This document shows positions 3,832-44,889 of a stretch of DNA of 64,000 nt, piece by piece. Positions within the stretch are counted from its first letter, which is position 1, and every line of letters starts with the position of its first letter. This DNA is from Zeimonas sediminis (GTDB lineage Bacteria; Pseudomonadota; Gammaproteobacteria; Burkholderiales; Burkholderiaceae_E), in the NCBI RefSeq assembly GCF_023721795.1, contig NZ_JAMQYE010000001.1:2391671-2455670 (forward strand), in the 5' to 3' direction. Made by a program: the position numbers and the translations under genes. The notes below the pieces were generated by a model. It made no database searches. It was not told where the DNA came from and saw only the letters and a list, made by a program, of their open reading frames with translations.

Positions 3832-5195
3832 TCGATGATCTCCACTTTCGGCTGAACCAGCTCGCGGCGGATGTAGCCCGAGGTGGTCGAGATGCGCCGG
3901 CGCAGGCTGCTGCGCACGCCGCCGCCGCCGGCCGGCCCGCTGCAGTACAGCGCGAGCACTTCCTCGGGCGCGCGCGCTGCGGTGGCGCGATCGGGCGCGC
4001 TGATCGCGATGCGCACGCGCACGTCCTGCAGAAGGCTGGCGGCGTCGCTCGCGTCGGCGCGCCCGGCCAGGAAGTCGCCGCGGTCGTCGCCAAAGACGCT
4101 GGCCACGCCGATCAGGTCGCCGCGCACCCGGATGCCGGGCGGCAGGCGCTTGCGCACCACGTCTAGCGCGAGCCGGGCGCGCGCCAGCGCGTTGGGGCCG
4201 GCGTAGGAGATCTCGCCCTCGCCGAACCAGCCGGCCTCGTGACCGACCGTCACCTTGAGCCGCGCCGGCTTCTCGCGGCCGCGCGCGCCCTCGACCCGCA
4301 CCTGGTCGGGGCCGGCCTCGGCCAGCTCGATCTGCGTGATGTCGAGCGTGACGTCGGGCGTCAGGTACGCGGACGGGTCGTGGATCTCGTAGAGCAGCTG
4401 CTCGGTGACCGTGTGCCGGTTCACCAGCCCGCCGATGTCGTCGCCCTTGCCCACGGTGAAGCGGCCGTCGGCCTGCATGGCCACGACCGGGAAGGCGATG
4501 CGCTCGGGGTGCGGCACGTCCTTGAAGCCGGGGTCGGCGTAATAGCCGCCGGTGACCTGCGCGCCGCACTCGAGCAGGTGGCCGGCCGCGGTGCCGGCGG
4601 CGGCGAGCGTCGTGTCGTCGAGCGACCAGCCGTGGAAGTGCGCGAAGGGCGCCAGCGCGAGCGAGGGGTCGGCCACCCGGCCGGCCACGACCACGTCGGC
4701 CCCGGCCGCGAGCGCCTCGACCATCGGTGCGGCGCCCAGGTATGCGTTGGCGCAGATCACGTCGCCGAGCGGCCGCGGCGCGCCCTGCTCGTCTTCCAGG
4801 CCGGAGATCGCGCCGCTGGCGATCAGGTCGTCGCCGGTGACCACCGCGATCTTCATCGGGCGGCAGCCTAGCCGCTCGCCGAGCGCGCGGATCGCGAGGG
4901 CTGCCGCGCGGGGGTTGGCCTGGCCGAAGTTGCCGAGGATGCGGATGCCGTGGGCCAGGCAGGGCTCGAGGATCGGCTCGAGCATGCGCTCGAGCAGCGG
5001 CTCGTAGCCGAGTTCCGGGTTCTCCAGGCGGGCGAGCTGGGCCAGCGCCAGCGTGCGCTCGCCGAGCGTCTCGAACATGATCGCCGCCGGGCCGCCCGAG
5101 GCGATCAGGCTGCGCACCACCGGCAGCGGCGCGTCCAGCCGGTCGCCGGAAAAGCCGGCGCCGCAGCCCACCCTCACCGTTTCGTGCCCGGGCAC
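3828..5195 (-). CDS. AtuA-like protein (DUF1446), acyclic terpene/branched-acid utilisation
   Basis: A 455-residue protein of the AtuA/DUF1446 family. The start VRVGCGAGFSGDRLDAP, then GNFGQANPRAAALAIRALGE, GADVVVAGRVADPSLALAPF and the TVTEQLLYEIHDPSAYLTPD segment are the recognisable landmarks. AtuA was first linked to citronellol/geraniol catabolism in Pseudomonas, but relatives occur in many acyl-CoA pathways and its reaction is not settled. It is the first gene of the leftward operon that continues with the small partner and the TAXI transporter, and it faces a divergent LysR regulator across 195 bp, which is the expected arrangement for an inducible catabolic operon. Confidence 0.85.
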   Translation of the reverse strand: MPGHETVRVGCGAGFSGDRLDAPLPVVRSLIASGGPAAIMFETLGERTLALAQLARLENPELGYEPLLERMLEPILEPCLAHGIRILGNFGQANPRAAALAIRALGERLGCRPMKIAVVTGDDLIASGAISGLEDEQGAPRPLGDVICANAYLGAAPMVEALAAGADVVVAGRVADPSLALAPFAHFHGWSLDDTTLAAAGTAAGHLLECGAQVTGGYYADPGFKDVPHPERIAFPVVAMQADGRFTVGKGDDIGGLVNRHTVTEQLLYEIHDPSAYLTPDVTLDITQIELAEAGPDQVRVEGARGREKPARLKVTVGHEAGWFGEGEISYAGPNALARARLALDVVRKRLPPGIRVRGDLIGVASVFGDDRGDFLAGRADASDAASLLQDVRVRIAISAPDRATAARAPEEVLALYCSGPAGGGGVRSSLRRRISTTSGYIRRELVQPKVEIIE

Positions 5196-30052: not shown

Positions 30053-32161
30053 TCAGAAGCGGCGGCTCGCCTTCACCCCGGCGAACCAGGCGCGGCCCGG
30101 CGCCGGCTCGTAGTAGCGGCCGCTGGCCGCGTTCACGATCACCGAGCCCACGTAGCGCGCGTCGAACAGGTTGTCGATCCGGGCGTACGGCAGGATCCGC
30201 CAACCGGCCACGCGCCAGTCGTAGCCGAAGCGCCAGTTCGCCACCGCGTACGAGGCGGCGCTCGCCGAATTGGCGTCGTCGACCCAGACCTTCGCGGCCC
30301 ACTGCGCCTCGAGCGCGGTCGCGAAGCCCGAGGGCGCATGCCGCCACGCGAGCTCGGCCTGCAGCAGGTGCTTCGGCACGCCGGGCAGCGCCCTGCCCGA
30401 CAGGTCCTCGCCGGCGAGGCTGACGTAGTCGCGGAACTCGGCGTCGATCCAGGTCCACGCGAGCCAGGCCTCGAAGCCGCGGCCCAGCGCAGTCTCCATG
30501 CCCAGCTCGACGCCGCGCCGCGCGGTGCGCGCCGCATTGCGGAAGGTGGTCCGGCCCGCGACGTTCGCGTCGGGCACGATGTCGTTGCGGGTGCTGGCGC
30601 GGAACAGCGCGAGGTTCAAGCGGCTGGCCGCGCTCGGCCGCGCCTTCAGGCCGAGCTCCAGGTTCGTGCTGGTGCTCGCCTCGAGCGCGAAGTTCACCCC
30701 CGGCTGCCCGTCGGGCCGATAGGCCAGCTCCGCGAAGGTCGGCGTCTCGAAGCCGCGACCGGCCGAAGCGTAGAGATTCACCGAGTCGCTGGCCGCGTAG
30801 AGCAGGCCGAGCACCGGGCGTGTCGCGGAGTAGTCGCGCCGGCCCGAGTCGTCGGGATTGACCGCGGTCACGTAGTCGTCGTCGACCCGGAAGCTCACGC
30901 TCGAGTGCCTGACGCCGCCGGCGAGCCGCCAGCGGTCGGCGAACCACCACTCGGCGATCGCGTACTGGTCGAAGTTCCAGACCGTGTCGCGCTCGTTGCG
31001 GCGCAGCTCGCCGGCCACGCCCGACTGGTTGACGAAGCCGCGCCTGCGCTCGCTCATCCGGTCGTAGTCGACGCCCAGCGAGAACGACAGCGGCCCGCCG
31101 GCCAGCCGCGCCTCGCGCGTCCACTGCAACCCCAGCCCGCCGAAGCCCCGGTCGAGGTCGACCACGCCGCCCGACGAGCCGGCCGCCGCCCCGCTGAAGG
31201 CGAGGAACTGCACCACGCGGCGATCGCCGCCGTAGCCGCGCAGCACCAGCCTGTCCGAGTCGCCGAGCCGGCGCGACCATTCGATGCCAGCCTGCCGATG
31301 GTCGACGCTCTTGCGGGTGTCGAAGGCGATCGCGCCGGCGCCGGCCTGCGTGGGGTCCTGATCGAGCTGCTCGCGGGTCAGGCCGAGCGGGTCCTGGGTG
31401 TCGGGCTGGTCCAGGGCGGTCGCGCTCAGCATGAAGCGGCCGTCGTCGCGCTCGTCGCCCCAGGCGAGCTTCGCGCCGAACAGGTCGCGCCGCGCCCGGC
31501 TGTGATCGCGATAGCCGTCGGTGGCGAAGCGCGAGGCGTTGAAGACCGCTCCGCCCGCCGCCACTGCGCCGAGCGGCGCGCCGTAACCGAGCCCCATCTT
31601 CCAGGCGCCGAAGCTGCCGGCGCCGCCGTTGAGCCGAAGCGTCGGCGCGGCGGGCGGGTCCTCGGTGAACAGCGACACCACGCCGCCGGAAGAGTTGCCG
31701 TACAGCGCGGCGAAGGGGCCGCGCAGCACCTCGATTCGTGAGGCCGCGTCGAGGTCGAACAGCCCGGTCTGGCCCTGGCCGTCGGGCATCGTCAGCGGAA
31801 CGCCGTCCTGCAGCAGCCGCACGCCGCGCACGCCGAAGCTCGCGCGCGCGCCGAAGCCGCGGCTCGACACCTGCAGGTCCTGCGCGAAGTTCTGCCGGTC
31901 GCGCACCACGATGCCCGGCACCCGACCGAGCGACTCGGACAGGTTCACGCCGGGCCGCTGCGCGGCGAGCGGATCCAGCCCGAAGGAATCGACCGAGGCC
32001 GGCAGCTCGAAGCCCGACCGCTCGACGCGAGTGGCGGTGACCGTGACCGGGTCCATCGACCGCGCCTGAGCCTGCGCGGTCGCCGGGGCCGGGGCGACCA
32101 GCGCGAGCAGGCAGGCGCCGACCCCGCCGGCTGCGGCCTTTCGGCTCACGCCGCCGCCCAA
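30053..32161 (-). CDS. TonB-dependent outer-membrane receptor
   Basis: A 702-residue receptor. A signal peptide (VGACLLALVAPAPATAQA) leads to a TonB-box-like start (DPVTVTATRVERSGFELPAS). The plug domain (~50-155) contains RVPGIVVRDRQNFAQDLQVS, then SRGFGARASFGVRGVRLLQD and IEVLRGPFAALYGNSSGGVV. The 22-strand barrel ends with the aromatic terminal residue of YYEPAPGRAWFAGVKASRRF. It starts 19 bp after the gamma-glutamyltransferase stop, so it is probably in that operon, while the metal efflux operon downstream has its own promoter. The ligand could be a metal chelate or an organic molecule. Confidence 0.93.
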   Translation of the reverse strand: MGGGVSRKAAAGGVGACLLALVAPAPATAQAQARSMDPVTVTATRVERSGFELPASVDSFGLDPLAAQRPGVNLSESLGRVPGIVVRDRQNFAQDLQVSSRGFGARASFGVRGVRLLQDGVPLTMPDGQGQTGLFDLDAASRIEVLRGPFAALYGNSSGGVVSLFTEDPPAAPTLRLNGGAGSFGAWKMGLGYGAPLGAVAAGGAVFNASRFATDGYRDHSRARRDLFGAKLAWGDERDDGRFMLSATALDQPDTQDPLGLTREQLDQDPTQAGAGAIAFDTRKSVDHRQAGIEWSRRLGDSDRLVLRGYGGDRRVVQFLAFSGAAAGSSGGVVDLDRGFGGLGLQWTREARLAGGPLSFSLGVDYDRMSERRRGFVNQSGVAGELRRNERDTVWNFDQYAIAEWWFADRWRLAGGVRHSSVSFRVDDDYVTAVNPDDSGRRDYSATRPVLGLLYAASDSVNLYASAGRGFETPTFAELAYRPDGQPGVNFALEASTSTNLELGLKARPSAASRLNLALFRASTRNDIVPDANVAGRTTFRNAARTARRGVELGMETALGRGFEAWLAWTWIDAEFRDYVSLAGEDLSGRALPGVPKHLLQAELAWRHAPSGFATALEAQWAAKVWVDDANSASAASYAVANWRFGYDWRVAGWRILPYARIDNLFDARYVGSVIVNAASGRYYEPAPGRAWFAGVKASRRF

Positions 32162-32180
32162 CGCCGGCTCGAACCCAGGC

Positions 32181-33767
32181 TCAGACCCCGGCCGCCGCGC
32201 CGTCGCTGCGCGGATCGGACGCGCCCTCGATCAGGCCGTCCGGATGCCGCACCAGCGCGCCGGCATGGCCCATCGTGTCGCTGAAGCCCTCCGCGAGCAG
32301 CTCGACCTGGTGGCCGGCCGCGCGCAGCGACTCGACCAGCTCCGCGTCGAAGCGGCTCTCCAGCTTCAGGCTGGTGCTGACGTCGCCCCAGGTGCGGCCG
32401 AGCAGCCAGCGCGGCGCGCTGACCGCCTGCTGCAGCGTCTGGCCGAAGCGCGCGTAGCGGGTGAACACCGCGGCCTGGGTCTGCGGCTGGCCCTCGCCGC
32501 CCATCGTGCCGTAGGGCATGACCCGGCCGTCGTCGAACAGCGCGAGCGCCGGGTTCAGCGTGTGGAAGGGCTTGCGGCCCGGCTCGAGCGCGTTCAGCGC
32601 GGCCGGGTCGAGCGAGAAGCTGGTGCCGCGGTTCTGCCAGCAGATGCCGGTGCCGGGCACCACGACGCCGGAGCCGAACTCCCAGTAAACGCTCTGGATG
32701 AAGCTGACCGCCCTGCCCTCGCGGTCGATCGCGCCCATCCAGATCGTGTCGCCGGGCGCGGCCGGCTCGGGCCAGGCCAGCGCACGGGCCATGTCGATCT
32801 CCTCGGCCAGCCGGTCGAGCACTTCGTCGGCCAGGAAGGACGCGGGCGGCTCGGGCACGCGGCCCGGGTCGGTCACGATCCGCTCGCGCACGCGGAAGGC
32901 GCGCTTGGTCGATTCGACCAGCCCGTGCAGGTGCGCGAAGCCCTCGCCCTCGGTGACCGCGAGCCGGTCGAAGATGCCGAGGATCATCAGCGCGGCGAGC
33001 CCCTGCGTGGGCGGCGGCAGGTTGTAGACGGTGGCGTCGGCCAGCCGAACCGACAACGGCTCCACGATGCGCGCCTGGTGCGCGGCCAGGTCGGCCGCGC
33101 GCAGCGGGCTGCCGAGCCGCTCGAGCCCGGCGGCGATCTTCGCGGCCAGGCCACCGCGGTAGAAGTCGTCGAGCCCGCGCTCGGCCAGCGTCTGCAGCGT
33201 CTGCGCGAGCGCCGGCTGGCGCAGTAGGTGGCCGCGCGCCGGCGGCTCGCCGTCGACCAGGTAAGCGTCGGCGAAGCCGGGCGCGTCCTTCAGGCCGTCG
33301 AGCTTCTGCCGGGTGAGCGCCGCCTGGCTGGCGGTGACCGCCACGCCGTCGCGGCCGTGCCGGATCGCGTCGGCGAGCAGCCGCGACAGCGGCAGCGGCT
33401 TGCCCCAGCCTTGCGCCACCTCCAGCGCCTTGGCCCAGCCGCTGATGGTTCCAGCGACAGTGAGCGCTGCCTTCGGTCCGCGCGACGGGATCGCGTCGAG
33501 TCCGGCGTAGAAGCTCCGGTCGGCCAGCCCGGCGGCAGCGCCGCAGGCGTCGATCGCCACCGGCGGCTTGCCCGGCTCGTGGATCAGCCAGAAGCCGTCG
33601 CCGCCGATCGCGTTCATGTGCGGATAGACGACGGCGATCGCGGCGGCCGCGGCCACCATCGCCTCGACCGCGTTGCCGCCGTCACGGAGCACGTCGCGGC
33701 CGGCCTGGGCGGCCAGGTGGTGGGGCGCGACGATCATGCCGCCCAGGGCGGCGGGGGTCTGGATCAA
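32181..33767 (-). CDS. Gamma-glutamyltransferase family protein
   Basis: A 528-residue Ntn-hydrolase of the GGT family, which transfers or hydrolyses gamma-glutamyl groups. The N-terminus (AALGGMIVAPHHLAAQAGRD, then VLRDGGNAVEAMVAAAAA) and IGGDGFWLIH are conserved. The catalytic nucleophile is probably Thr341 in APGDTIWMGAIDREGRAVS, where autocleavage would give ~340- and ~188-residue chains. YGTMGGEGQPQTQAAVFTRY, near residue 430, is the conserved GG loop. No signal peptide is visible, so it may be cytoplasmic like YwrD-type members. It lies 69 bp after the dctM gene and 19 bp before the TonB receptor, implying import of a substrate with a gamma-glutamyl or related amide bond. Confidence 0.9.
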   Translation of the reverse strand: MIQTPAALGGMIVAPHHLAAQAGRDVLRDGGNAVEAMVAAAAAIAVVYPHMNAIGGDGFWLIHEPGKPPVAIDACGAAAGLADRSFYAGLDAIPSRGPKAALTVAGTISGWAKALEVAQGWGKPLPLSRLLADAIRHGRDGVAVTASQAALTRQKLDGLKDAPGFADAYLVDGEPPARGHLLRQPALAQTLQTLAERGLDDFYRGGLAAKIAAGLERLGSPLRAADLAAHQARIVEPLSVRLADATVYNLPPPTQGLAALMILGIFDRLAVTEGEGFAHLHGLVESTKRAFRVRERIVTDPGRVPEPPASFLADEVLDRLAEEIDMARALAWPEPAAPGDTIWMGAIDREGRAVSFIQSVYWEFGSGVVVPGTGICWQNRGTSFSLDPAALNALEPGRKPFHTLNPALALFDDGRVMPYGTMGGEGQPQTQAAVFTRYARFGQTLQQAVSAPRWLLGRTWGDVSTSLKLESRFDAELVESLRAAGHQVELLAEGFSDTMGHAGALVRHPDGLIEGASDPRSDGAAAGV

Positions 33768-33836
33768 GAGGGATCTCCTTGGCTGTCTGCCGGCGCCGCC
33801 GTCCGATTGCGGTCGCCGGCTACTCTCGAATGCCGG

Positions 33837-35162
33837 CTACCACCCGATCGCCTTGGGCAGCCAGGTGGCAACGCCCGGGAACAGGAACAGGATCGCGACG
33901 GCGAGCATCTGCAGCAGCACGAAGGGTAGCGCGCCCAGGTAGATGTGCCGGGTGGTGACCCCGGCCGGCGCCACCCCTTTCAGGAAGAACAGCGCCCAGC
34001 CGAAGGGCGGCGTTAGGAAGGACATCTGCAGGTTCAGCGCGACCAGCGTGGCGAGCCAGACCATGTCGGTGCCGTAGTTCTGGAAGACCGGCAGGAACAT
34101 CGGCAGCGCGATGTACGAGATCTCGATCCACTCGAGGAAGAAGCCGAGCACGAACAACAGCGCCATCAGGAAGAGCAGCGCGCCGGTCTCGCCGCCGGGC
34201 ACCATCGAGAACAGGCCGTGCACCATGCCCTCGCCGCCCAGCCCGCGAAAGGCGAGCGCGAAGGGCTGCGCGCACAGCAGGATGAAGAAGACCATCGCGG
34301 TGATCGTCAGCGTGCCGTGCAGCGTTTCGCGCAGCAGCTTGCCGTTCATCCGCCGCGCGCCGATCGCGATCAGCGCGCTGCCCAGCGCGCCCATCGACGC
34401 GGCCTCGGTGGGCGCGGCGACGCCGCCGATGATCGAGCCGAGAACCGCCACCACCAGCAGAAGCGGCGGCACCACGGTGCGCAGCAGGTCGCGCGCGAGC
34501 GAGCCCGCAGCGTGCGCGGCGCGCTCGTCGGCCGGGATCGCCGGCACCGCGGACGGCCGCAGCCAGCCCATCGCCAGCAGGTAGACCACGTAGATGGCCG
34601 CCAGCGCGAGCCCCGGCAGGAAGGCCGCCGCGAACAGCGTGCCGACCGACTCGCCGACGATCTCGGACAGCAGGATCAGCACCAGGCTGGGCGGGATGAT
34701 CTGCCCGAGCGTGCCCGATGCGCAGATCGTGCCGCAGGCGATGCCCGGCGAATAACCTCGCCGCAGCAAGGTGGGCAGGGTCAGCATCGCCACCGTGACC
34801 ACGGTCGCGCCGACGATGCCGGTCGAGGCGCCCATCAGCACGCCGACCAGCACGATCGCGATGCCCATGCCCCCGTTCACGCCGCCCATCGCGCGACCGA
34901 TCGTCTCGAGCATGTCCTCGGCCACGCGCGACTTCTCGAGCATCACGCCCATGAACACGAACAGCGGGATCGCCAGCATCGTGTAGTTGGTGACGACGCC
35001 GTAGAGGCGGGCAGGCAGCAGCGAGAACAGCGTGTCGCCGAAGCCAAGCCAGCCGAACACGAAGCCCGACACGGCCAGCGCGATCGCGACCGGGATGCCG
35101 AGCATCATCATGACCAGGAAGCCCGCGATCAGGCCGATCGCGAGCCATTCGTTGAGGCTCAC
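33837..35162 (-). CDS. dctM: TRAP transporter large permease subunit (DctM)
   Basis: A 441-residue protein with about 12 membrane segments. Characteristic DctM pieces are AMLTLPTLLRRGYSPGIACG, then TICASGTLGQIIPPSLVLIL and IIGGVAAPTEAASMGALGSA. GTG 35162 overlaps the dctQ stop (GTGA). It forms the sodium-coupled translocation unit with the small subunit and takes substrate from the DctP-type protein encoded at 35757-36839. Confidence 0.95.
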   Translation of the reverse strand: MSLNEWLAIGLIAGFLVMMMLGIPVAIALAVSGFVFGWLGFGDTLFSLLPARLYGVVTNYTMLAIPLFVFMGVMLEKSRVAEDMLETIGRAMGGVNGGMGIAIVLVGVLMGASTGIVGATVVTVAMLTLPTLLRRGYSPGIACGTICASGTLGQIIPPSLVLILLSEIVGESVGTLFAAAFLPGLALAAIYVVYLLAMGWLRPSAVPAIPADERAAHAAGSLARDLLRTVVPPLLLVVAVLGSIIGGVAAPTEAASMGALGSALIAIGARRMNGKLLRETLHGTLTITAMVFFILLCAQPFALAFRGLGGEGMVHGLFSMVPGGETGALLFLMALLFVLGFFLEWIEISYIALPMFLPVFQNYGTDMVWLATLVALNLQMSFLTPPFGWALFFLKGVAPAGVTTRHIYLGALPFVLLQMLAVAILFLFPGVATWLPKAIGW

Positions 35163-35698
35163 GCGTGCACCCTGGCCGGCGCTTTGGCCGGAACCGCGGC
35201 CTGCGCGACCGCGAGCAGCCGCGACACCGCGCGCAGCGTGTCGACCAGCCCCTGCAGCGCGAGCGCCGAGAAGCCGAGCGGGATGAAGGCCTTCAGCAGG
35301 AAGCGCAAGGGCAGGCCGCCGGGGTCGGGCGAGCCCTCGCCGATCTCGTAGGCCTGCATCACGTACGGGATCGCGAGCCAGGCGATCGCCACGCCGACGG
35401 CCAGCGTCAGCAGGCCGCTCGCCACGTCGACCAGCGCGCGACCGCGCTCGCCGAAGCCGTCGTACAGGAAGTCGACCCGAACGTCGGCCCGGTGGTGCAC
35501 CGCGTAGGCCATGCCGAGCAGCGCGATCGGCGAGACCAGGTGCCACTCGAACTCCTGCAGCCCGACCGGGCTCCACGAGAACGCGTAGCGAAGCAGCACG
35601 TTGGCGGCCACCAGCAGCACCAGCGCGAGCACCGAGGCGCGCGCCACCCAGCCGAGCGCCAGGACGACGCGCTCGAGCGAGGCATTGAATGCATTCAT
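35159..35698 (-). CDS. dctQ: TRAP transporter small permease subunit (DctQ)
   Basis: A 179-residue protein with four predicted membrane helices (~15-37, 55-75, 93-115, 135-160). FSWSPVGLQEFEWHLVSPIA and HHRADVRVDFLYDGF are typical of the small subunit that supports DctM. It follows dctP after 58 bp and overlaps dctM by 4 bp, so the order is P-Q-M. Confidence 0.94.
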   Translation of the reverse strand: MNAFNASLERVVLALGWVARASVLALVLLVAANVLLRYAFSWSPVGLQEFEWHLVSPIALLGMAYAVHHRADVRVDFLYDGFGERGRALVDVASGLLTLAVGVAIAWLAIPYVMQAYEIGEGSPDPGGLPLRFLLKAFIPLGFSALALQGLVDTLRAVSRLLAVAQAAVPAKAPARVHA

Positions 35699-35756
35699 CT
35701 CGATACCTCGAGGCGGGAGGGCCGCCGCATCGGCAGGACGCAGCGGCCCGTGTCGC

Positions 35757-36839
35757 TCAGAGCGACAGGAAGGTCTTCTCGCTGACCCCGGCCCACGACT
35801 CGTGCTTCTTGCGGAAGGCCATGAACGCGTCGTGCACCTTGCGGGTGGCCGGGTCGGCCTTCGCCAGGCCCTCGAGCGTGTCGGCGGTGACCGTCTTGAG
35901 CTTCGCGATCACGTCCGCGGGCAAGGGCTGCGCCTTCACGCCGTGGTTGGCGACCAGGTCGGCCAGCGCGTCGGCGTTGACCGCCTCGCACCAGGCGTGA
36001 CTCTCGGTGTTGCAGGCCATCGCGGCGGCCTGAACCACGGCCTGCAGGTCCTTGGGCAGGCTGTCCCAGGCCTTCTTGTTGATCATCAGCTCGGTCACGT
36101 TGGTCGGCTCGTGCCAGCCGGTGGTGTAGTAGTACTTCGCGGCCTTCTGCAGGCCCAGCCGGCGATCCTGGTAGGGGCCGACGAATTCGGCCGCGTCGAT
36201 CACGCCGCGCTCGAGCGCCGGGAAGATCTCGCCGCCCGGCAGCAGCCGCACCGCGACGCCGAGCTCGCTGTAGACCTTGCCGGCCAGACCGGGGATGCGC
36301 ATCTTCAGGCCGTCGAAGTCCTTGATGCTCTCGATCGGCTTGCGGAACCAGCCGGTCATCTGCACACCGGTATTGCCCATCGGGAAGGCGATCAGGCCGC
36401 GCTCGGCGTACAGCTCGTGCCACAGCTTCAGGCCGCCGCCGTGATAGAGCCACGCGTTCATGCCCTGCGTGTTCATGCCGAAGGGCACCGTGGTGAAGTA
36501 CTGGGCGGCGGGCACCTTGCCGGCCCAGAAGTAGGCATTGGCCGCGTTCATCTCGACCGTGCCCTTGGACACCGCGTCGAAGCCCTCGAGCGCCGGAATC
36601 AGCTCGCCGGCGGCGAAGTGCTGGATCTTCAGCCGCCCGCCCGACATCTCCTCGACCTTCTTGCAGAAGTCGGTCGGGCTGCCCGGGCCCTGCACGTAGA
36701 ACGGCGAGCCGGGCCCGTAGGCGTTGGTCATCTTCCAGGAGAAGGTCTTCGGCTGGGCGCGGACCACGGCGGGCGCGCCGAGGATCAGGCCGGAGGCGGC
36801 GGCAGCGCCGGAGATCAGCGAACGGCGGGTGGGGATCAT
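35757..36839 (-). CDS. dctP: TRAP transporter solute-binding protein (DctP type)
   Basis: A 360-residue periplasmic protein. The N-terminus MIPTRRSLISGAAAASGLIL has the look of a Tat signal (TRRSL). The domain includes FSWKMTNAYGPGSPFYVQGP, FRKPIESIKDFDGLKMRIPG and the conserved ligand region ALERGVIDAAEFVGPYQDRR. These match the TakP/DctP7 branch, which binds 2-oxo acids or similar organic acids as dimers. An ATG at 36848 lies only one base from AAGGAG, so ATG 36839 (10 bases) is preferred. It is the first gene of the operon facing the GntR regulator. Confidence 0.94.
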   Translation of the reverse strand: MIPTRRSLISGAAAASGLILGAPAVVRAQPKTFSWKMTNAYGPGSPFYVQGPGSPTDFCKKVEEMSGGRLKIQHFAAGELIPALEGFDAVSKGTVEMNAANAYFWAGKVPAAQYFTTVPFGMNTQGMNAWLYHGGGLKLWHELYAERGLIAFPMGNTGVQMTGWFRKPIESIKDFDGLKMRIPGLAGKVYSELGVAVRLLPGGEIFPALERGVIDAAEFVGPYQDRRLGLQKAAKYYYTTGWHEPTNVTELMINKKAWDSLPKDLQAVVQAAAMACNTESHAWCEAVNADALADLVANHGVKAQPLPADVIAKLKTVTADTLEGLAKADPATRKVHDAFMAFRKKHESWAGVSEKTFLSL

Positions 36840-36841
36840 GG

Positions 36842-36850
36842 CTTGCATGC
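36842..36850. promoter_or_regulatory. Possible partial GntR half-site CTTGCATGC
   Basis: The nine bases CTTGCATGC repeat the first nine of the 12-bp core CTTGCATGCAAG shared by the two palindromes around the GntR gene. The site sits just ahead of the dctP start on the minus strand and overlaps its ribosome-binding region. It could be chance, since it also encodes part of the leader. Confidence 0.35.
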
Positions 36851-37079
36851 TCCTTGTCGGGTATCGAGGTGGAGGCGTCGGAGATTGACCCGACAGGTCT
36901 AGCAACTGGCGTGCCAGCAAGGATTCGCGCCGGCGGAACCGGCTCGCGCACCAGCGCGGCGCACGGGGCCGGCGGCAATGCGGCGCGAGCGCGCCCGATC
37001 CCGGTGCCCGCCGCCAGCGAACGCGCCGAAGTGGCGCGCATCGCGTCCAGTCGGGCGCCGCACCGCGCTTGCGCCGAAG

Positions 37080-37095
37080 TTCTTGCATGCAAGAA
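37080..37095. promoter_or_regulatory. GntR operator 1: 16-bp perfect palindrome TTCTTGCATGCAAGAA
   Basis: A perfect 16-bp palindrome lies 28 bp before the GntR start, in the 284-bp gap between the divergent dctP and GntR genes. The same 12-bp core recurs at 37856-37871. Size and symmetry fit a FadR/VanR-type GntR dimer site. Confidence 0.8.
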
Positions 37096-37123
37096 TCGGG
37101 GCGTGTGAACATCGGGCGTCGAG

Positions 37124-37846
37124 ATGCCCGAGAGCGAGATGCCGAGCCCCCGATCCACTGCGACGAATCGAAGCGGCGCGGCGCAGCGGCGCCGCAAGGG
37201 CGAGCTGCACGGCAGCACCGTCGCGATGCTGCGCGACCTGATCATCACCGGCGCGCTGGCGCCCGGCGAGCGGCTGAACGAGCGCGAGCTCTGCGAGCGG
37301 CTCGGTGTGTCGCGCACGCCGGTGCGCGAGGCGATCAAGACGCTTCTGCAGGAGGGCCTGCTGCACGCCCGGCCGAACCGATCGCCGGTGGTCGTGGCGC
37401 TCGAAGCCGGCGAGATCTCGGCGCTGATCGAAGTGCTGGCTGCGATCGAGGGGCTCGCCGGCGAACTCGCAGCGCCACGTGCCACCGACGCGTTCGTCGC
37501 CGAACTGGACGCGCTGCACGACGCGATGCGGCGCAATCACGCCCGCAAGGCGCTGCCCGACTACTTCGCGGCCAACAAGGCCTTTCACCGGCGCATCGTC
37601 GAGCAGTCGGGCAACCCGGTGCTTCTCTGGGTCTGGGACATGCTGGCGCCGCGCGTCGATCGGGCCCGCTACGCGTCGAACCTGTGGCCCCGGCGCTGGA
37701 GCACGGCGATCGACGAGCACGGCGGGATCCTGGACCGGCTCAGGGCCCGCGATGCGCAGGGCCTCGGCGACTCGATGCGGAACCACGTCCGCAACGGGCT
37801 GACGGCGCTGGCCGCCGCGCTGGAAAGCGAACCCGGGCGACCTTGA
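37124..37846 (+). CDS. GntR family regulator (FadR subfamily, FCD domain)
   Basis: A 240-residue regulator. Residues ~30-95 are the winged helix (MLRDLIITGALAPGERLNER, then ELCERLGVSRTPVREAIKTL) and ~105-225 the all-helical FCD ligand domain. FAANKAFHRRIVEQSGNPVL and the later DEHGGILDRLRARDAQGL carry the histidines that usually bind a metal and the carboxylate effector. A second in-frame ATG at 37139 is possible. Perfect palindromes stand on both sides of the gene, so it likely represses its own operon, the TRAP operon behind it and perhaps the divergent TRAP-GGT-TonB operon until an organic acid is present. Confidence 0.95.
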   Translation: MPESEMPSPRSTATNRSGAAQRRRKGELHGSTVAMLRDLIITGALAPGERLNERELCERLGVSRTPVREAIKTLLQEGLLHARPNRSPVVVALEAGEISALIEVLAAIEGLAGELAAPRATDAFVAELDALHDAMRRNHARKALPDYFAANKAFHRRIVEQSGNPVLLWVWDMLAPRVDRARYASNLWPRRWSTAIDEHGGILDRLRARDAQGLGDSMRNHVRNGLTALAAALESEPGRP

Positions 37847-37855
37847 CGCCCCGAA

Positions 37856-37871
37856 ATCTTGCATGCAAGAT
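37856..37871. promoter_or_regulatory. GntR operator 2: 16-bp perfect palindrome ATCTTGCATGCAAGAT
   Basis: A perfect 16-bp palindrome begins 10 bp after the GntR stop and ends 57 bp before the start of the second dctP. It shares the core CTTGCATGCAAG with operator 1. Its place implies a separate, GntR-controlled promoter for the rightward TRAP-SDR operon. Confidence 0.8.
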
Positions 37872-37928
37872 CGATCGACCAGGATCGATCCACGATCCGG
37901 CACGCCGAACGAGAACTGGAGGAGACCG

Positions 37929-38948
37929 ATGGCTTCGCGCAACAGTCCGCTTCGTCGCAGGATCCTGAAGGCCGGCGCAGCCGCCACGGCCGTCGCCGGA
38001 AGCGCATGGGTGATCCCGGCGCGCGCCGCGGTGGAGCTCAAGCTGACCCACCCGGCGGACACGTCGCACCCGGTGCACATCGAGGCCGACAAGATGGCCA
38101 AGCGGATTGCCGAGCGCACCAACGGTGAGGTGAAGATCACGCTGTTCCCGAACAACGCGCTCGGCTCGCCGGTCGAGACCGCGCAGCAGACCCGGCTCGG
38201 CGCGATCGACATGATCCTGATGAACCCGGCCAACATCGAGTCGATCTCGAAGTCGGTCGGCGTCATCAACATCCCCTACCAGTTCGACGGCTACGAGCAC
38301 GCGCACCGCACGCTCGACGTCACCGCGCGCGACTGGATCACGCAGCAGCTCGCAGCCGCCGGCTTCGCCTGGATCGCGAACTTCGAGTGGGGCTTCCGCG
38401 CCCTTTCGAACAGCCGCCGCCCGGTCAACACCCCCGACGACGTCAAGGGGCTGAAGATCCGGGTACCGCCAGAGCTGGCGATCAAGGCCGCCTTCGAGGC
38501 GCTGGGCGCCAGCACGCAGACGGTGGCCTTCCAGGAGGTCTACCTGGCGCTGGCGAACAAGGCGGTCGACGGCCAGGACAATCCGGTGGGCACCACCTAC
38601 GCCGCGAAGTTCTTCGAGGTGCAGAGCCACATCGCGCTGACCAGGCACATCTACGCGTCGATCATGTTCGCGGCCAACCCCCGCTCGTGGCAGGGCAAGC
38701 TGAACGACGCGCAGCGCAAGATCGTCATCGAGGAGGCCACGACGGCCGGCGCGGCGGCGCGCAAGGGCGTGCGCGACCTCGAGGAGGACTTCCTCGCGCG
38801 GATGCAGAAGGCCGGCGTGGCGGTCACCCGGCCCGACGTCGCGCCGTTCCGCGAGAAGATGGCGCCGGCCTACGAGGTGCTCAGAAAGAACCTCGGCGAC
38901 GACACCTGGAACGCCTGGGCGAAGCTGGTGGCCGCGGCGCGCGGCTGA
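37929..38948 (+). CDS. dctP: TRAP transporter solute-binding protein (DctP type)
   Basis: A 339-residue periplasmic protein with a Tat-like signal (SPLRRRILKAGAAATAVAGS, cleavage near ARA). VELKLTHPADTSHPVHIEAD, then LGSPVETAQQTRLGAIDMIL and KIRVPPELAIKAAFEALGAS belong to the classical DctP family that binds C4-dicarboxylates, sugar acids and related anions. ATG 37929 is preceded by GGAGGAG. It differs clearly from the DctP-type protein at 35757, so the two TRAP systems are not recent duplicates. The M and Q genes follow. Confidence 0.95.
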   Translation: MASRNSPLRRRILKAGAAATAVAGSAWVIPARAAVELKLTHPADTSHPVHIEADKMAKRIAERTNGEVKITLFPNNALGSPVETAQQTRLGAIDMILMNPANIESISKSVGVINIPYQFDGYEHAHRTLDVTARDWITQQLAAAGFAWIANFEWGFRALSNSRRPVNTPDDVKGLKIRVPPELAIKAAFEALGASTQTVAFQEVYLALANKAVDGQDNPVGTTYAAKFFEVQSHIALTRHIYASIMFAANPRSWQGKLNDAQRKIVIEEATTAGAAARKGVRDLEEDFLARMQKAGVAVTRPDVAPFREKMAPAYEVLRKNLGDDTWNAWAKLVAAARG

Positions 38949-39018
38949 TGGCACGGCGGGACGCGCGCTGCGGGCGCGGGCGGCGCGCGGGTCCCGCGCG
39001 GAGGCGGGGCTCGCCCCG

Positions 39019-40317
39019 ATGCTGATCGCCGGCATCCTGATCTCGGTCTGCCTGACCATCCTGATCGGCATGCCGATCGCCGGCGCGCTGGCGATCATCG
39101 CGATCGGCACGATGGTGGCCACCGCCGGCACCGACCTGCTCGCGATCTTCATCCAGCGCACCTACGCGGGCACCACCTCCTTCCCGCTGCTGGCGATCCC
39201 CTTCTTCATCCTGGCCGGCAACCTCATGAACGCCGGCGGCACCACCGAGCGGATCTTCGCGGTGGCGCGGCTGTTCGTCGGCAGCATCCGCGGCGGGCTG
39301 GCCCATGTGAACGTGGTCGGGAGCCTGATCTTCGGCGGCATGTCGGGCTCGGCGGTGGCCGACGCGGCCGGCATGGGGGTGATCGAGATCCGCGCGATGG
39401 TCCGCGAGGGCTACAGCCCGCGATTCGCAGCCACGATCACCGCGGTCTCGTCGACGATCGGCCCGATCATCCCGCCGAGCATTCCCTTCGTGATCTACGG
39501 CAGCCTGGCCAACGTGTCGGTCGGCGCGCTGTTCCTGGCCGGCGTCGTGCCCGGCCTGCTGATGAGCCTGGGCCTGATCCTGGCGATCGCGGTGGCGGCC
39601 TGGCGCAACGACCTGCCCCGATCGCCCGGATTCCCGCCGCTGGCCGAAGCGGCCCGGACCTTCCTGCGCGCCGCGCCCGCGCTGGCCTTGCCGCCGCTGA
39701 TCCTGCTGGTGATCTTCGCCGGCGTGGCCACCCCGACCGAGGCGGCAGTCGTCGCCTCGGCCTATGCCTTCCTGCTCGGGCGCTTCGTGTATCGCGAACT
39801 CGGGCTGAGCGACTTCTGGCGCACCGTCTGGGAGAGCGGCCGGCAGACCGCGCAGGTGATGCTGATCATCGCGGTGTCGGCGCCGTTCGGCTGGGTGCTG
39901 ATCCAGCAGCAGGTCCCGAACGCGATCCTGAAGGCGCTGCTGGGGCTGTCGAGCGAGCCCTGGGTGATCCTGCTGGTCGTCAACCTGGCGCTGCTGATCC
40001 TCGGGATGTTCCTCGAGACGATCGCGATCCTGATCATCGCCTATCCGATCCTGGCGCCAGCCATGGCGCAGATCGGCATCGACCCGGTGCACTTCGGCGT
40101 GATCATCGTGCTGAACATGATGATCGGACTGATCACGCCGCCGGTGGGGCTCTGCCTGTACGTGGTCTCGGGCATCGCCAGGGTGCCGATCGCCGGGATC
40201 GCACGCGAGCTCGCGCCCTACCTGGTCGCCCTGCTGGCGGTGCTCGGCCTGGTCACCTACGTGCCGGCGATCTCGACCTGGCTGCCCAATGCGCTGGGCT
40301 TCGGGGTGGTCCGGTGA
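39019..40317 (+). CDS. dctM: TRAP transporter large permease subunit (DctM)
   Basis: A 432-residue membrane protein of ~12 helices. FGGMSGSAVADAAGMGVIEI, then SSTIGPIIPPSIPFVIYGSL and FAGVATPTEAAVVASAYAFL are classical DctM motifs. The gene follows dctP after 70 bp and precedes dctQ, an order (P-M-Q) seen in some TRAP operons. It forms the transport channel for the substrate delivered by the DctP-type protein. Confidence 0.95.
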   Translation: MLIAGILISVCLTILIGMPIAGALAIIAIGTMVATAGTDLLAIFIQRTYAGTTSFPLLAIPFFILAGNLMNAGGTTERIFAVARLFVGSIRGGLAHVNVVGSLIFGGMSGSAVADAAGMGVIEIRAMVREGYSPRFAATITAVSSTIGPIIPPSIPFVIYGSLANVSVGALFLAGVVPGLLMSLGLILAIAVAAWRNDLPRSPGFPPLAEAARTFLRAAPALALPPLILLVIFAGVATPTEAAVVASAYAFLLGRFVYRELGLSDFWRTVWESGRQTAQVMLIIAVSAPFGWVLIQQQVPNAILKALLGLSSEPWVILLVVNLALLILGMFLETIAILIIAYPILAPAMAQIGIDPVHFGVIIVLNMMIGLITPPVGLCLYVVSGIARVPIAGIARELAPYLVALLAVLGLVTYVPAISTWLPNALGFGVVR

Positions 40318-40823
40318 TCGGCCGCACGCTCGAGCGCCTGGACCTCGGCCTGGCCTTCGCCTGCCGCTGGATCGTCATCGGCTGCTTCCTCGGCCTGTTC
40401 GTGCTGCTGTCGCTGGGCATCGTCCAGCGCTTCGTGCCGCAGGTGAAGCTGTCGGGCTACGACGAGCTGGTCGAGCTGCTGTTCGGCTGGATGACCTTCG
40501 TCGGCGCGCTGGCGCTGTGGCGCGAGGGCGCGCTCTACCGGGTGGCGATGATCGATCGCCTGCTCTCGCCGCGCCTGCGCACCGCGGTCGCCGCCCTGAT
40601 CCACCTGACGATGCTCGCGGTGGCGCTGACCTTCACGATCAAGGGCCAGGAGTTCATGGCGATGTCGGGCGAGACGACGCCCTTCCTTCAGCTGGACAAG
40701 GCCTGGTGGTACGCGGCGATCCCGGTGTGCGGCAGCCTGATGGCGGTCTACAGCGCCGCCGCGCTCTGGCGCGCGCTGCGCGGCCAGGCGAGCCTGGAGG
40801 CGTCGAGCGGCGCGCTGAGCTGA
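40314..40823 (+). CDS. dctQ: TRAP transporter small permease subunit (DctQ)
   Basis: A 169-residue protein with four membrane helices and the DctQ pattern GYDELVELLFGWMTFVGALA, then LWREGALYRVAMI. GTG 40314 overlaps the dctM stop (GTGA). It completes the second TRAP transporter; the SDR gene follows after 44 bp and probably belongs to the same transcript. Confidence 0.93.
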   Translation: MIGRTLERLDLGLAFACRWIVIGCFLGLFVLLSLGIVQRFVPQVKLSGYDELVELLFGWMTFVGALALWREGALYRVAMIDRLLSPRLRTAVAALIHLTMLAVALTFTIKGQEFMAMSGETTPFLQLDKAWWYAAIPVCGSLMAVYSAAALWRALRGQASLEASSGALS

Positions 40824-40867
40824 GCGGCGCGCCGCCGAAGCGACAACGAACGATCGGAGAAGAAGCG

Positions 40868-41641
40868 ATGCGAAGACTCGAAGGCAAGGTAGCGATCGTC
40901 ACCGGCGGCGCGGGCGGCATCGGCGCGGCCACCGGCCGGCTGTTCTGCGAGGAAGGCGCGAAGACGGTGCTGGTCGACCTGGCCGACTCGCCGCTGGCCG
41001 AAGTGGCGCAGCGCATCCGCGACGAAGTGCCCGGCGCCGAGGTGACGACGATCGCCGCCGACGTCGGCCTCGAGGCCTCGGCGGACACGATCGTCGCCGG
41101 CACCCTGGAGCGCCACGGCCGGCTCGACGTGCTGGTCAACAACGCCGGCATCCGCGCCTACGAGCCGCTGGCCGAGGCGAAGGCCGAGACCTGGCAGAAG
41201 ATCCTGTCGGTCAACCTGCTCAGCTACGCCTGGCTCGCGCGCGCGGCCCTGCCGGCACTGCGCGCGAGCGGCCGCGGCGCGATCGTCAACATCTCGTCCA
41301 CCCACGCGATGAATCCGCGCGCCGGCATGGGGCAATACGACGTGGCGAAGGCCGGCATCCTGTCGATGACCCGCACGCTCGCTTTCGAGGAGGCGGCACA
41401 CGGGGTGCGGGTCAACGCGGTCTGCCCGGGGCTCACGCTGACCCCCTTCCACGTGCGGCGGTTCGCGGCGGAGGGCCGGACCGAGCAGGACCTGCGCAAC
41501 GAGAGGGCCGAGAACAACCTGCAGCGGCGCTGGGCCGACCCGCGCGAGGTGGCGTACCCGATCCTGTGGCTCGCCTCGGACGAGGCCTCGTACATGACCG
41601 CTGCCACGCTGATGGTCGACGGCGGGCAGCGGGTGCTGTAG
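40868..41641 (+). CDS. Short-chain dehydrogenase/reductase (classical SDR)
   Basis: A 257-residue NAD(P)-dependent oxidoreductase. The cofactor loop TGGAGGIG is at residues 12-19, NNAG at 91-94, the catalytic serine at 143-144 (VNISSTHAMNP), and Tyr157 with Lys161 in GQYDVAKAG. VNAVCPGLTLTPFHVRRF and ATLMVDGGQRVL are the usual C-terminal features. It probably oxidises or reduces a hydroxy or oxo group of the compound imported by the TRAP system encoded upstream. A broken copy of a very similar gene lies at 13085-13526. Confidence 0.94.
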   Translation: MRRLEGKVAIVTGGAGGIGAATGRLFCEEGAKTVLVDLADSPLAEVAQRIRDEVPGAEVTTIAADVGLEASADTIVAGTLERHGRLDVLVNNAGIRAYEPLAEAKAETWQKILSVNLLSYAWLARAALPALRASGRGAIVNISSTHAMNPRAGMGQYDVAKAGILSMTRTLAFEEAAHGVRVNAVCPGLTLTPFHVRRFAAEGRTEQDLRNERAENNLQRRWADPREVAYPILWLASDEASYMTAATLMVDGGQRVL

Positions 41642-44813: not shown

Positions 44814-44889
44814 TGGCGCGCCCGGCTGGGATCGAACCAGCGACCCCTGGCTTCGGAGGCCAGTACTCTATCCACTGAGCTACGGGCGC
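44814..44889 (-). tRNA. tRNA-Arg (anticodon CCG)
   Basis: Read on the minus strand, the sequence folds as a full tRNA. The acceptor GCGCCCG pairs with CGGGCGC, followed by discriminator G and an encoded CCA. The D-arm is GCTCAGTGGATAGAGT. The anticodon arm CTGGC-CTCCGAA-GCCAG gives anticodon CCG (arginine codon CGG). The T-arm CGCTGGTTCGATCCCAGC contains the invariant GGTTCGA. Confidence 0.97.

Follow-up and report, generated by a model that had tools for sequence, protein, structure and literature searches.

The gntR locus of Zeimonas sediminis

The stretch of DNA analysed here, referred to as the window, comprises 64,000 nt (64 kb) of the Zeimonas sediminis genome (contig NZ_JAMQYE010000001.1, positions 2,391,671 to 2,455,670), and our subject within it is a gene for a GntR-type regulator, gntR, together with the two 16-bp palindromes that flank it. 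To the right of gntR lies an operon encoding a tripartite ATP-independent periplasmic (TRAP) transporter and a short-chain dehydrogenase/reductase (SDR), and to the left, on the opposite strand, an operon that likewise begins with TRAP genes and continues with a gamma-glutamyltranspeptidase (GGT) and a TonB receptor. A preliminary description made from the sequence had taken this arrangement for a two-way TRAP regulon, with the palindromes as operators of the GntR protein. The features at the centre of the analysis, numbered from the first letter of the window, are:

37080-37095, no strand: putative operator 1, TTCTTGCATGCAAGAA, 28 nt 5' of the gntR ATG, matrix score 30.2
37124-37846, + strand: GntR-type regulator with FCD effector domain, 240 aa (Pfam, AlphaFold model, alignment, PDB matches)
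37856-37871, no strand: putative operator 2, ATCTTGCATGCAAGAT, 9 nt past the gntR stop codon and 57 nt 5' of the TRAP binding-protein ATG, matrix score 32.0
37929-41641, + strand: predicted target operon (TRAP binding protein, DctM, DctQ, SDR), gene order kept in 12/15 orthologous loci, L034 lacking the binding protein
37929-38948, + strand: TRAP binding protein
39019-40317, + strand: DctM
40314-40823, + strand: DctQ
40871-41641, + strand: SDR dehydrogenase

The 240-aa regulator belongs to the FCD/VanR-type GntR family. Pfam returned GntR at 66.8 bits (cut-off 27) and FCD at 101.4 bits (cut-off 24.3), giving an N-terminal GntR winged helix followed by a C-terminal FCD domain. Six FCD helices characterise VanR and seven FadR, and the AlphaFold model (mean predicted local distance difference test score 86.6) has six, at residues 95-119, 122-140, 144-161, 165-185, 189-207 and 211-235. 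FCD metal sites follow the pattern of D or N plus three H, and the predicted metal-site residues of this protein are N151, H155, H199 and H221, the first three present in 41/41 aligned sequences and the last in 40/41, the remaining one having a gap. Residues of the DNA-binding domain that set the clade apart from its relatives in the alignment include V/I67 (against L67), Q76 and S87. Among the PDB entries whose folds match best are those of a Brucella GntR (7u5q), Atu1419 (6za3) and AlkR (9isw); for AlkR, the published description mentions six additional helices (PMC12042122). Among NCBIfam GntR regulators 22 families matched (PhnR_burk, NanR, LldR, PdhR and others), none reaching its own cut-off, and the best of them, PhnR_burk, gave 105.9 bits against a cut-off of 271.5.

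The preliminary description was exact as to the palindromes: TTCTTGCATGCAAGAA and ATCTTGCATGCAAGAT are perfect over 16 bp, have a common core, and are also alike over the AT-rich 14-mer TCTTGCATGCAAGA. Palindromy as such is unremarkable in a window of 72% GC, which holds 74 perfect palindromes of at least 12 bases and 10 of at least 16 bases, operators 1 and 2 among the latter and 3 of them longer; the special feature is the AT-rich sequence common to both. The core CTTGCATGCAAG has two matches in the window at up to two mismatches, both perfect, and since at least two such matches were also present in 64 of 100 shuffles, that count alone is uninformative. Across the 3.86-Mb genome TCTTGCATGCAAGA occurs in 2 copies (reversed control, 0), and when up to three mismatches were allowed there were 2 places with none, no place with one or two, and 21 with three (control, 11), the site of the nearest GntR paralogue being one of these 21. 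The degenerate form TTGYATRCAA was found at three places in the genome, namely operators 1 and 2 and one site beside that paralogue. A scoring matrix built from 28 sites in relatives, with the window left out, gave the operators 30.2 and 32.0 and the next best position in the 64 kb 0.8, whilst the best scores in 20 simulated 64-kb sequences lay between -2.6 and 9.9.

Sites beside orthologous gntR genes

Relatives of the regulator were taken by protein alone, the motif being unused, and a contig scan gave 42, of which 15 at 56-70% identity served as orthologues. These come from the Burkholderiales (e.g. Ramlibacter, Lautropia, Rubrivivax) and the Hyphomicrobiales (mainly Bosea), and amongst 101 genomes (that of Z. 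sediminis and 100 of its kin) there was one other comparable orthologue, in genome G020 at 65% identity and identical in locus to L036, with no other reaching 55%. This patchy spread suggests horizontal transfer. Viral contigs yielded 79 candidate stretches for relatives, none of them confirmed, and the 1169 matching plasmid records were all below 60% identity.

Sites of the form TTGNATNCAA are present in all 15 orthologous loci: 13 have one in the 300 bp upstream of gntR and 12 have one in the 200 bp downstream (11 exact, and L033 with one change), so that the motif stands beside orthologues chosen blind to it, as befits an autogenous operator. Together with the genomic rarity of TTGYATRCAA, this strongly supports its view of the palindromes as operators of the GntR encoded between them. 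The downstream site and downstream TRAP genes concur in every locus, both being present in 12 and neither in 3, and it is because the site occurs in all TRAP-followed loci and in none of the others that control of the rightward TRAP-SDR operon by this GntR appears likely. The gene order of binding protein, DctM, DctQ and SDR is kept in 11 of those 12 loci; in the twelfth, L034, no TRAP binding-protein gene lies between the downstream operator and DctM (L034:965-1254). As to the loci without downstream TRAP genes, L037 and L038 have strong sites before lactonase-like and oxidoreductase genes and only weak ones near gntR (scores 8.0 and 15.0), and L035 has as its sole further strong site ATCCTGCATGCAAGAT (23.6), 1275 bp downstream of gntR and before another, leftward, non-TRAP gene.

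In more distant relatives, variants such as TTTTGCATACAAAAT stand upstream of the gntR genes there, often as pairs (83 sites in 50/55 loci). Sixteen stretches from relatives with unlinked TTGCATGCAA-type sites were also inspected: five hold a GntR paralogue (35-50% identity), two another TRAP operon, one lies just past L039, and eight had no clear reading. Several further sites are worth recording individually. In L115 (G000:C1:1497000-1508000), a stretch of the Z. sediminis genome itself, the gene of the nearest GntR paralogue (4131-4826, 41% identical) has the site CTTTTGCATACAAAAT at 4860, about 40 bp before its aligned start, with a weaker second site nearby and a divergent TRAP-like system. 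Stretches L155 and L156, from the Bosea genomes of L041 and L040 respectively, contain one more GntR gene (49-50% identity) which, along with several TTGNATNCAA sites, lies next to a cyclase gene and another TRAP system; we read this as a sister regulon. In L146 and L147, from the genomes of L037 and L038, whose gntR genes have no adjoining TRAP genes, a TRAP operon of another kind is preceded by the unlinked site AAGTTGCATGCAAGAA.

Promoters predicted around the putative operators

In the direction away from gntR, most sites have ahead of them a -35-like hexamer, at a constant spacing that brings the far half-site into the -10 position, the consensus of this layout being TTGACR, 17 or 18 bp, CAAGAW. 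In the window it gives two candidate promoters:

37843-37871, + strand: predicted rightward promoter, -35 TTGACG (37843-37848), 17-bp spacer, CAAGAT in the -10 position (37866-37871)
37080-37109, - strand: predicted leftward promoter, -35 TTCACA (37109-37104), 18-bp spacer, CAAGAA in the -10 position (37085-37080)

The rightward TTGACG overlaps the gntR stop codon and its CAAGAT is the right half of operator 2, whilst the leftward CAAGAA is half of operator 1 and is separated by 240 nt from the start codon of the left TRAP gene. Each -35 hexamer matches TTGACA at 5/6 bases. Taking the sites together (window included), upstream sites (n = 14) match TTGACA on average at 4.93 bases leftward and at 2.79 towards gntR, and downstream sites (n = 13) at 4.54 rightward and at 2.38 in the opposite direction; random positions average 2.27, with 5 or more matches in 0.8%. 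For a stricter comparison the window and three near-duplicate loci were left out and TTGACA was sought at 16-18 bp: a match of at least 5/6 was found at 12 of the 19 remaining sites outward and at none inward, 16 sites scoring higher outward and 3 being tied. That the operators are predicted to sit within outward-facing promoters, with a half-site in the -10 position, is new to this analysis. At site 1 the leftward match is 4-6 in the nine loci with a divergent pathway gene, 3 or 4 in L040, L041 and L045, where the neighbour is not divergent, and 6 in L034, which lies at a contig edge; on these small numbers the window, with 5 leftward matches, resembles the divergent-gene group.

We therefore put at about 0.82 the probability that the palindromes are operators of the FCD/VanR-type GntR encoded between them, that each lies in a predicted outward promoter and that operator 2 controls the TRAP-SDR operon. 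In favour of this there is also the published footprint of the VanR-like GntR Ms0535, in which the CTTGCATGCAAG core recurs (PMC4609117). Each operator would overlap the spacer and -10 element of a promoter pointing away from gntR, such that a bound GntR dimer would exclude RNA polymerase from that promoter until released by an effector; the effector is probably an acid that the pathway produces or takes up. Operator 2 would in this way govern the TRAP-SDR operon, and operator 1 would act over the leftward promoter, which in relatives faces a divergent catabolic gene and in Z. sediminis points towards the unrelated TRAP-GGT-TonB operon; operator 1 may act on gntR itself too. The analysis shows the sequence of the sites, how rare and how conserved they are, the promoter geometry and the family of the protein, whereas binding, repression as opposed to activation, the effector and transcription into either operon are what we infer. 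Repression, with release by a pathway acid, would be the likelier mode, because two regulators of the VanR type, Atu1419 and AlkR, are described as repressors whose palindromes cover -10 boxes (PMC7797058, PMC12042122).

A number of points weigh against this reading. The loci are related by descent, so the Wilcoxon p of 0.00018 for the 19-site comparison overstates their independence. A consensus promoter scanner found no promoter in 36700-38100, and the hexamers CAAGAT and CAAGAA match TATAAT poorly, a distance which accounts for the failure of the general scanner. Three of the nine de-duplicated downstream sites have a -35 match of just 3/6, although two of these weak three, L033 and L043, show by eye a TTGACG-17-CATGAT promoter just before the operator. 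The layout is absent from the four displaced sites of L037 and L038, which have 1 to 4 matches. Towards gntR, site 1 matches the -35 at 2/6, which leaves autoregulation without direct promoter support. The layout was also considered as a property of the wider family and rejected as such: the 83 upstream sites of the distant relatives, near-duplicates kept, average 2.75 towards gntR and 2.49 away from it, near the random 2.27, so the outward arrangement is not general and is unseen in these relatives. In the genomes of the 15 orthologues TTGYATRCAA occurs at 2 to 16 places each (reversed control, 0 to 2) and thus reaches beyond this regulon. Finally, Ms0535, the regulator with the matching footprint, is reported as an activator (PMC4609117).

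Possible leftward reach and alternative readings

The remaining features concern the left side of the locus:

30053-36839, - strand: left operon, comprising a keto-acid-type TRAP binding protein, DctQ, DctM, GGT and a PqqU-like TonB receptor, its control by GntR uncertain
36842-36850, no strand: nine-base partial copy CTTGCATGC, score -2.4, judged chance

The GGT and TonB receptor genes occupy 30053-33767, the receptor scoring 638 bits against the 1200-bit PqqU cut-off. The preliminary description had pointed out the nine-base copy at the start of this operon. It is indeed present, in the gap that separates the left gene's ATG from its ribosome-binding sequence, yet we rejected it as a third site: its matrix score of -2.4 (against 30.2 and 32.0) is at chance level and ranks sixth in the window, it is not among the genomic matches to TCTTGCATGCAAGA at up to three mismatches, and it was not seen by eye at the start of five orthologues of the left TRAP gene.

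The two-way TRAP regulon of the preliminary description finds support on one side only. Conservation gives no support to left-operon control. The left operon lies beside this gntR in 0/15 relatives, L034 not being assessable, with 326 bp of contig left on that side, and L042 and L043 showing just about 2 kb on that side, occupied by other genes. Orthologues of the left binding protein (63-67% identity), with DctQ and DctM, were found in 5 of 60 kin genomes, and in these five stretches (10-11 kb, with about 2 kb upstream) no GGT, TonB receptor, TTGNATNCAA site or gene for this GntR was detected; one of the five genomes, G020, carries this gntR too, on another contig. It is about an even bet that control by the GntR is confined to its own gene and the rightward TRAP-SDR operon, with operator 1 autoregulatory and the left operon an unrelated neighbour under its own control. 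The position of operator 1 agrees with this: its centre lies about 36 bp away from the start of gntR and 248 bp away from that of the left gene, whereas single sites shared in divergons tend to be central (PMC4494728). Against it stands the leftward promoter at operator 1, with 5/6 -35 bases at the spacing seen in relatives and the gntR-facing side at 2/6, and no terminator-like site was found in 36700-38100, between that promoter and the left operon. With the predicted leftward promoter retained and no terminator-like site found, we place the likelihood of leftward control by this GntR a little short of even.

On the left side of the relatives there is instead a divergent oxidoreductase, whose Pfam DRL_cat domain we take to be DXR-like, directly in 7/15 loci and with a cyclase-family gene in between in 2 more. 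Genes for a lactonase-like amidohydrolase are common in them as well. In L033, L036, L042, L043, L044, L046 and L047 the ATG of the divergent DXR-like oxidoreductase was seen by eye to fall a few bases past the operator and its -10 position, and its messenger in these seven loci would be nearly leaderless. About 0.69 Mb from gntR in Z. sediminis, stretch L116 (G000:C1:3109000-3121000) holds a pair of genes for a DXR-like oxidoreductase (42% identity) and a lactonase-like amidohydrolase (65%), and in these 12 kb no site scored above 5.7. We tentatively suggest that a mobile regulator cassette with two outward operator-promoters has exchanged its left partner, the left promoter now driving the unrelated keto-acid TRAP-GGT-TonB operon; if true, a second uptake system would thereby answer to the signal that governs the first. 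The sole RNA gene found in the window (Rfam gathering thresholds, ARAGORN) is a tRNA-Arg (ccg) at 44814-44889 on the - strand.

The two sites might instead form one unit, bridged by a tetrameric regulator that loops out its own gene, as is described for the VanR-type Atu1419, which is among the nearest folds and forms a tetramer looping the DNA between palindromes 190 bp apart (PMC7797058). Retention of the two-site arrangement in 12/15 loci fits such a unit, but we consider it unlikely. Looping by phased sites was rejected on the unphased spacings: the centre-to-centre distance varies from 776 to 937 bp, with 8 distinct values in 11 loci plus the window, and tests for helical phasing gave p of about 0.25 to 0.86 at periods of 10.4-10.6 bp. 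A predicted promoter of its own at each site also explains the pair without looping. That the palindromes bind some other regulator, or are a repeat or structural element, is very improbable; palindromes as such abound in this GC-rich window, but we found no direct evidence for such a role, and it is countered by the facts that the motif tracks orthologues of this GntR over Burkholderiales and Hyphomicrobiales, that related motifs occur in 50/55 distant-relative loci and that in its own genome the motif is found elsewhere only at the nearest paralogue.

Relation to known systems

Preferring, then, the operators within outward promoters, we compared them with published systems. A literature text match of the exact CTTGCATGCAAG core was found in three papers, two of them on animals and one on a bacterial regulator, the VanR-like GntR Ms0535 of Mycobacterium smegmatis, whose footprint, CCTTGCATGCATTCTTGCATGCAAGG, holds that core and lies just upstream of the regulator gene (PMC4609117); it differs in its 26-bp double motif, activating role, major facilitator superfamily permease target, phylum and pathway. 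Atu1419 of Agrobacterium fabrum (VanR group, FCD; PDB 6za3) shares the domain architecture and a close fold, and is a repressor with a short even palindrome, ATGTATACAT, overlapping the -10 boxes that it targets; it has more than one palindrome, and its own gene is preceded by some of them (PMC7797058). It is, however, 27-28% identical, has another operator sequence, controls hydroxycinnamate degradation, and forms a looping tetramer, for which the present locus gives no indication. AlkR of Pseudomonas aeruginosa (VanR; PDB 9isw; TM-score 0.90 by target length) has a six-helix FCD and an operator over -10 regions and is a repressor released by a pathway metabolite, but is 23% identical and serves an alkane pathway through an operator, ATTGTCAGACAAT, with odd spacing (PMC12042122). 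Divergons of FadR-subfamily GntR regulators resemble the present locus in having palindromic sites, single or double, beside the regulator gene and structural operons, some groups with an even two-base spacing (PMC4494728; Suvorova et al., 2015), and differ in their consensus TKGT/ACMA boxes, where we find TTGC-AT-GCAA, the GT/AC pair being GC/GC. The literature searches made found no published account of this regulon, and those on apionate oxidoisomerase and on GntR/TRAP/L-fuconolactonase operons showed no matching system among the papers listed.

Operator type, regulator type and layout are thus all already known, and what we describe is an ordinary gene switch, unusually well supported by genome comparison; beyond the operator, the promoters and the pathway link it is routine bacterial regulation. 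The regulator gains a predicted operator, two candidate promoters, whose fixed geometry narrows the expected transcript starts down to a few bases, and a conserved target operon. A pathway, possibly for a sugar acid (TRAP transporter and SDR, with the lactonase-like amidohydrolase and DXR-like oxidoreductase in relatives), may be tied to one switch.

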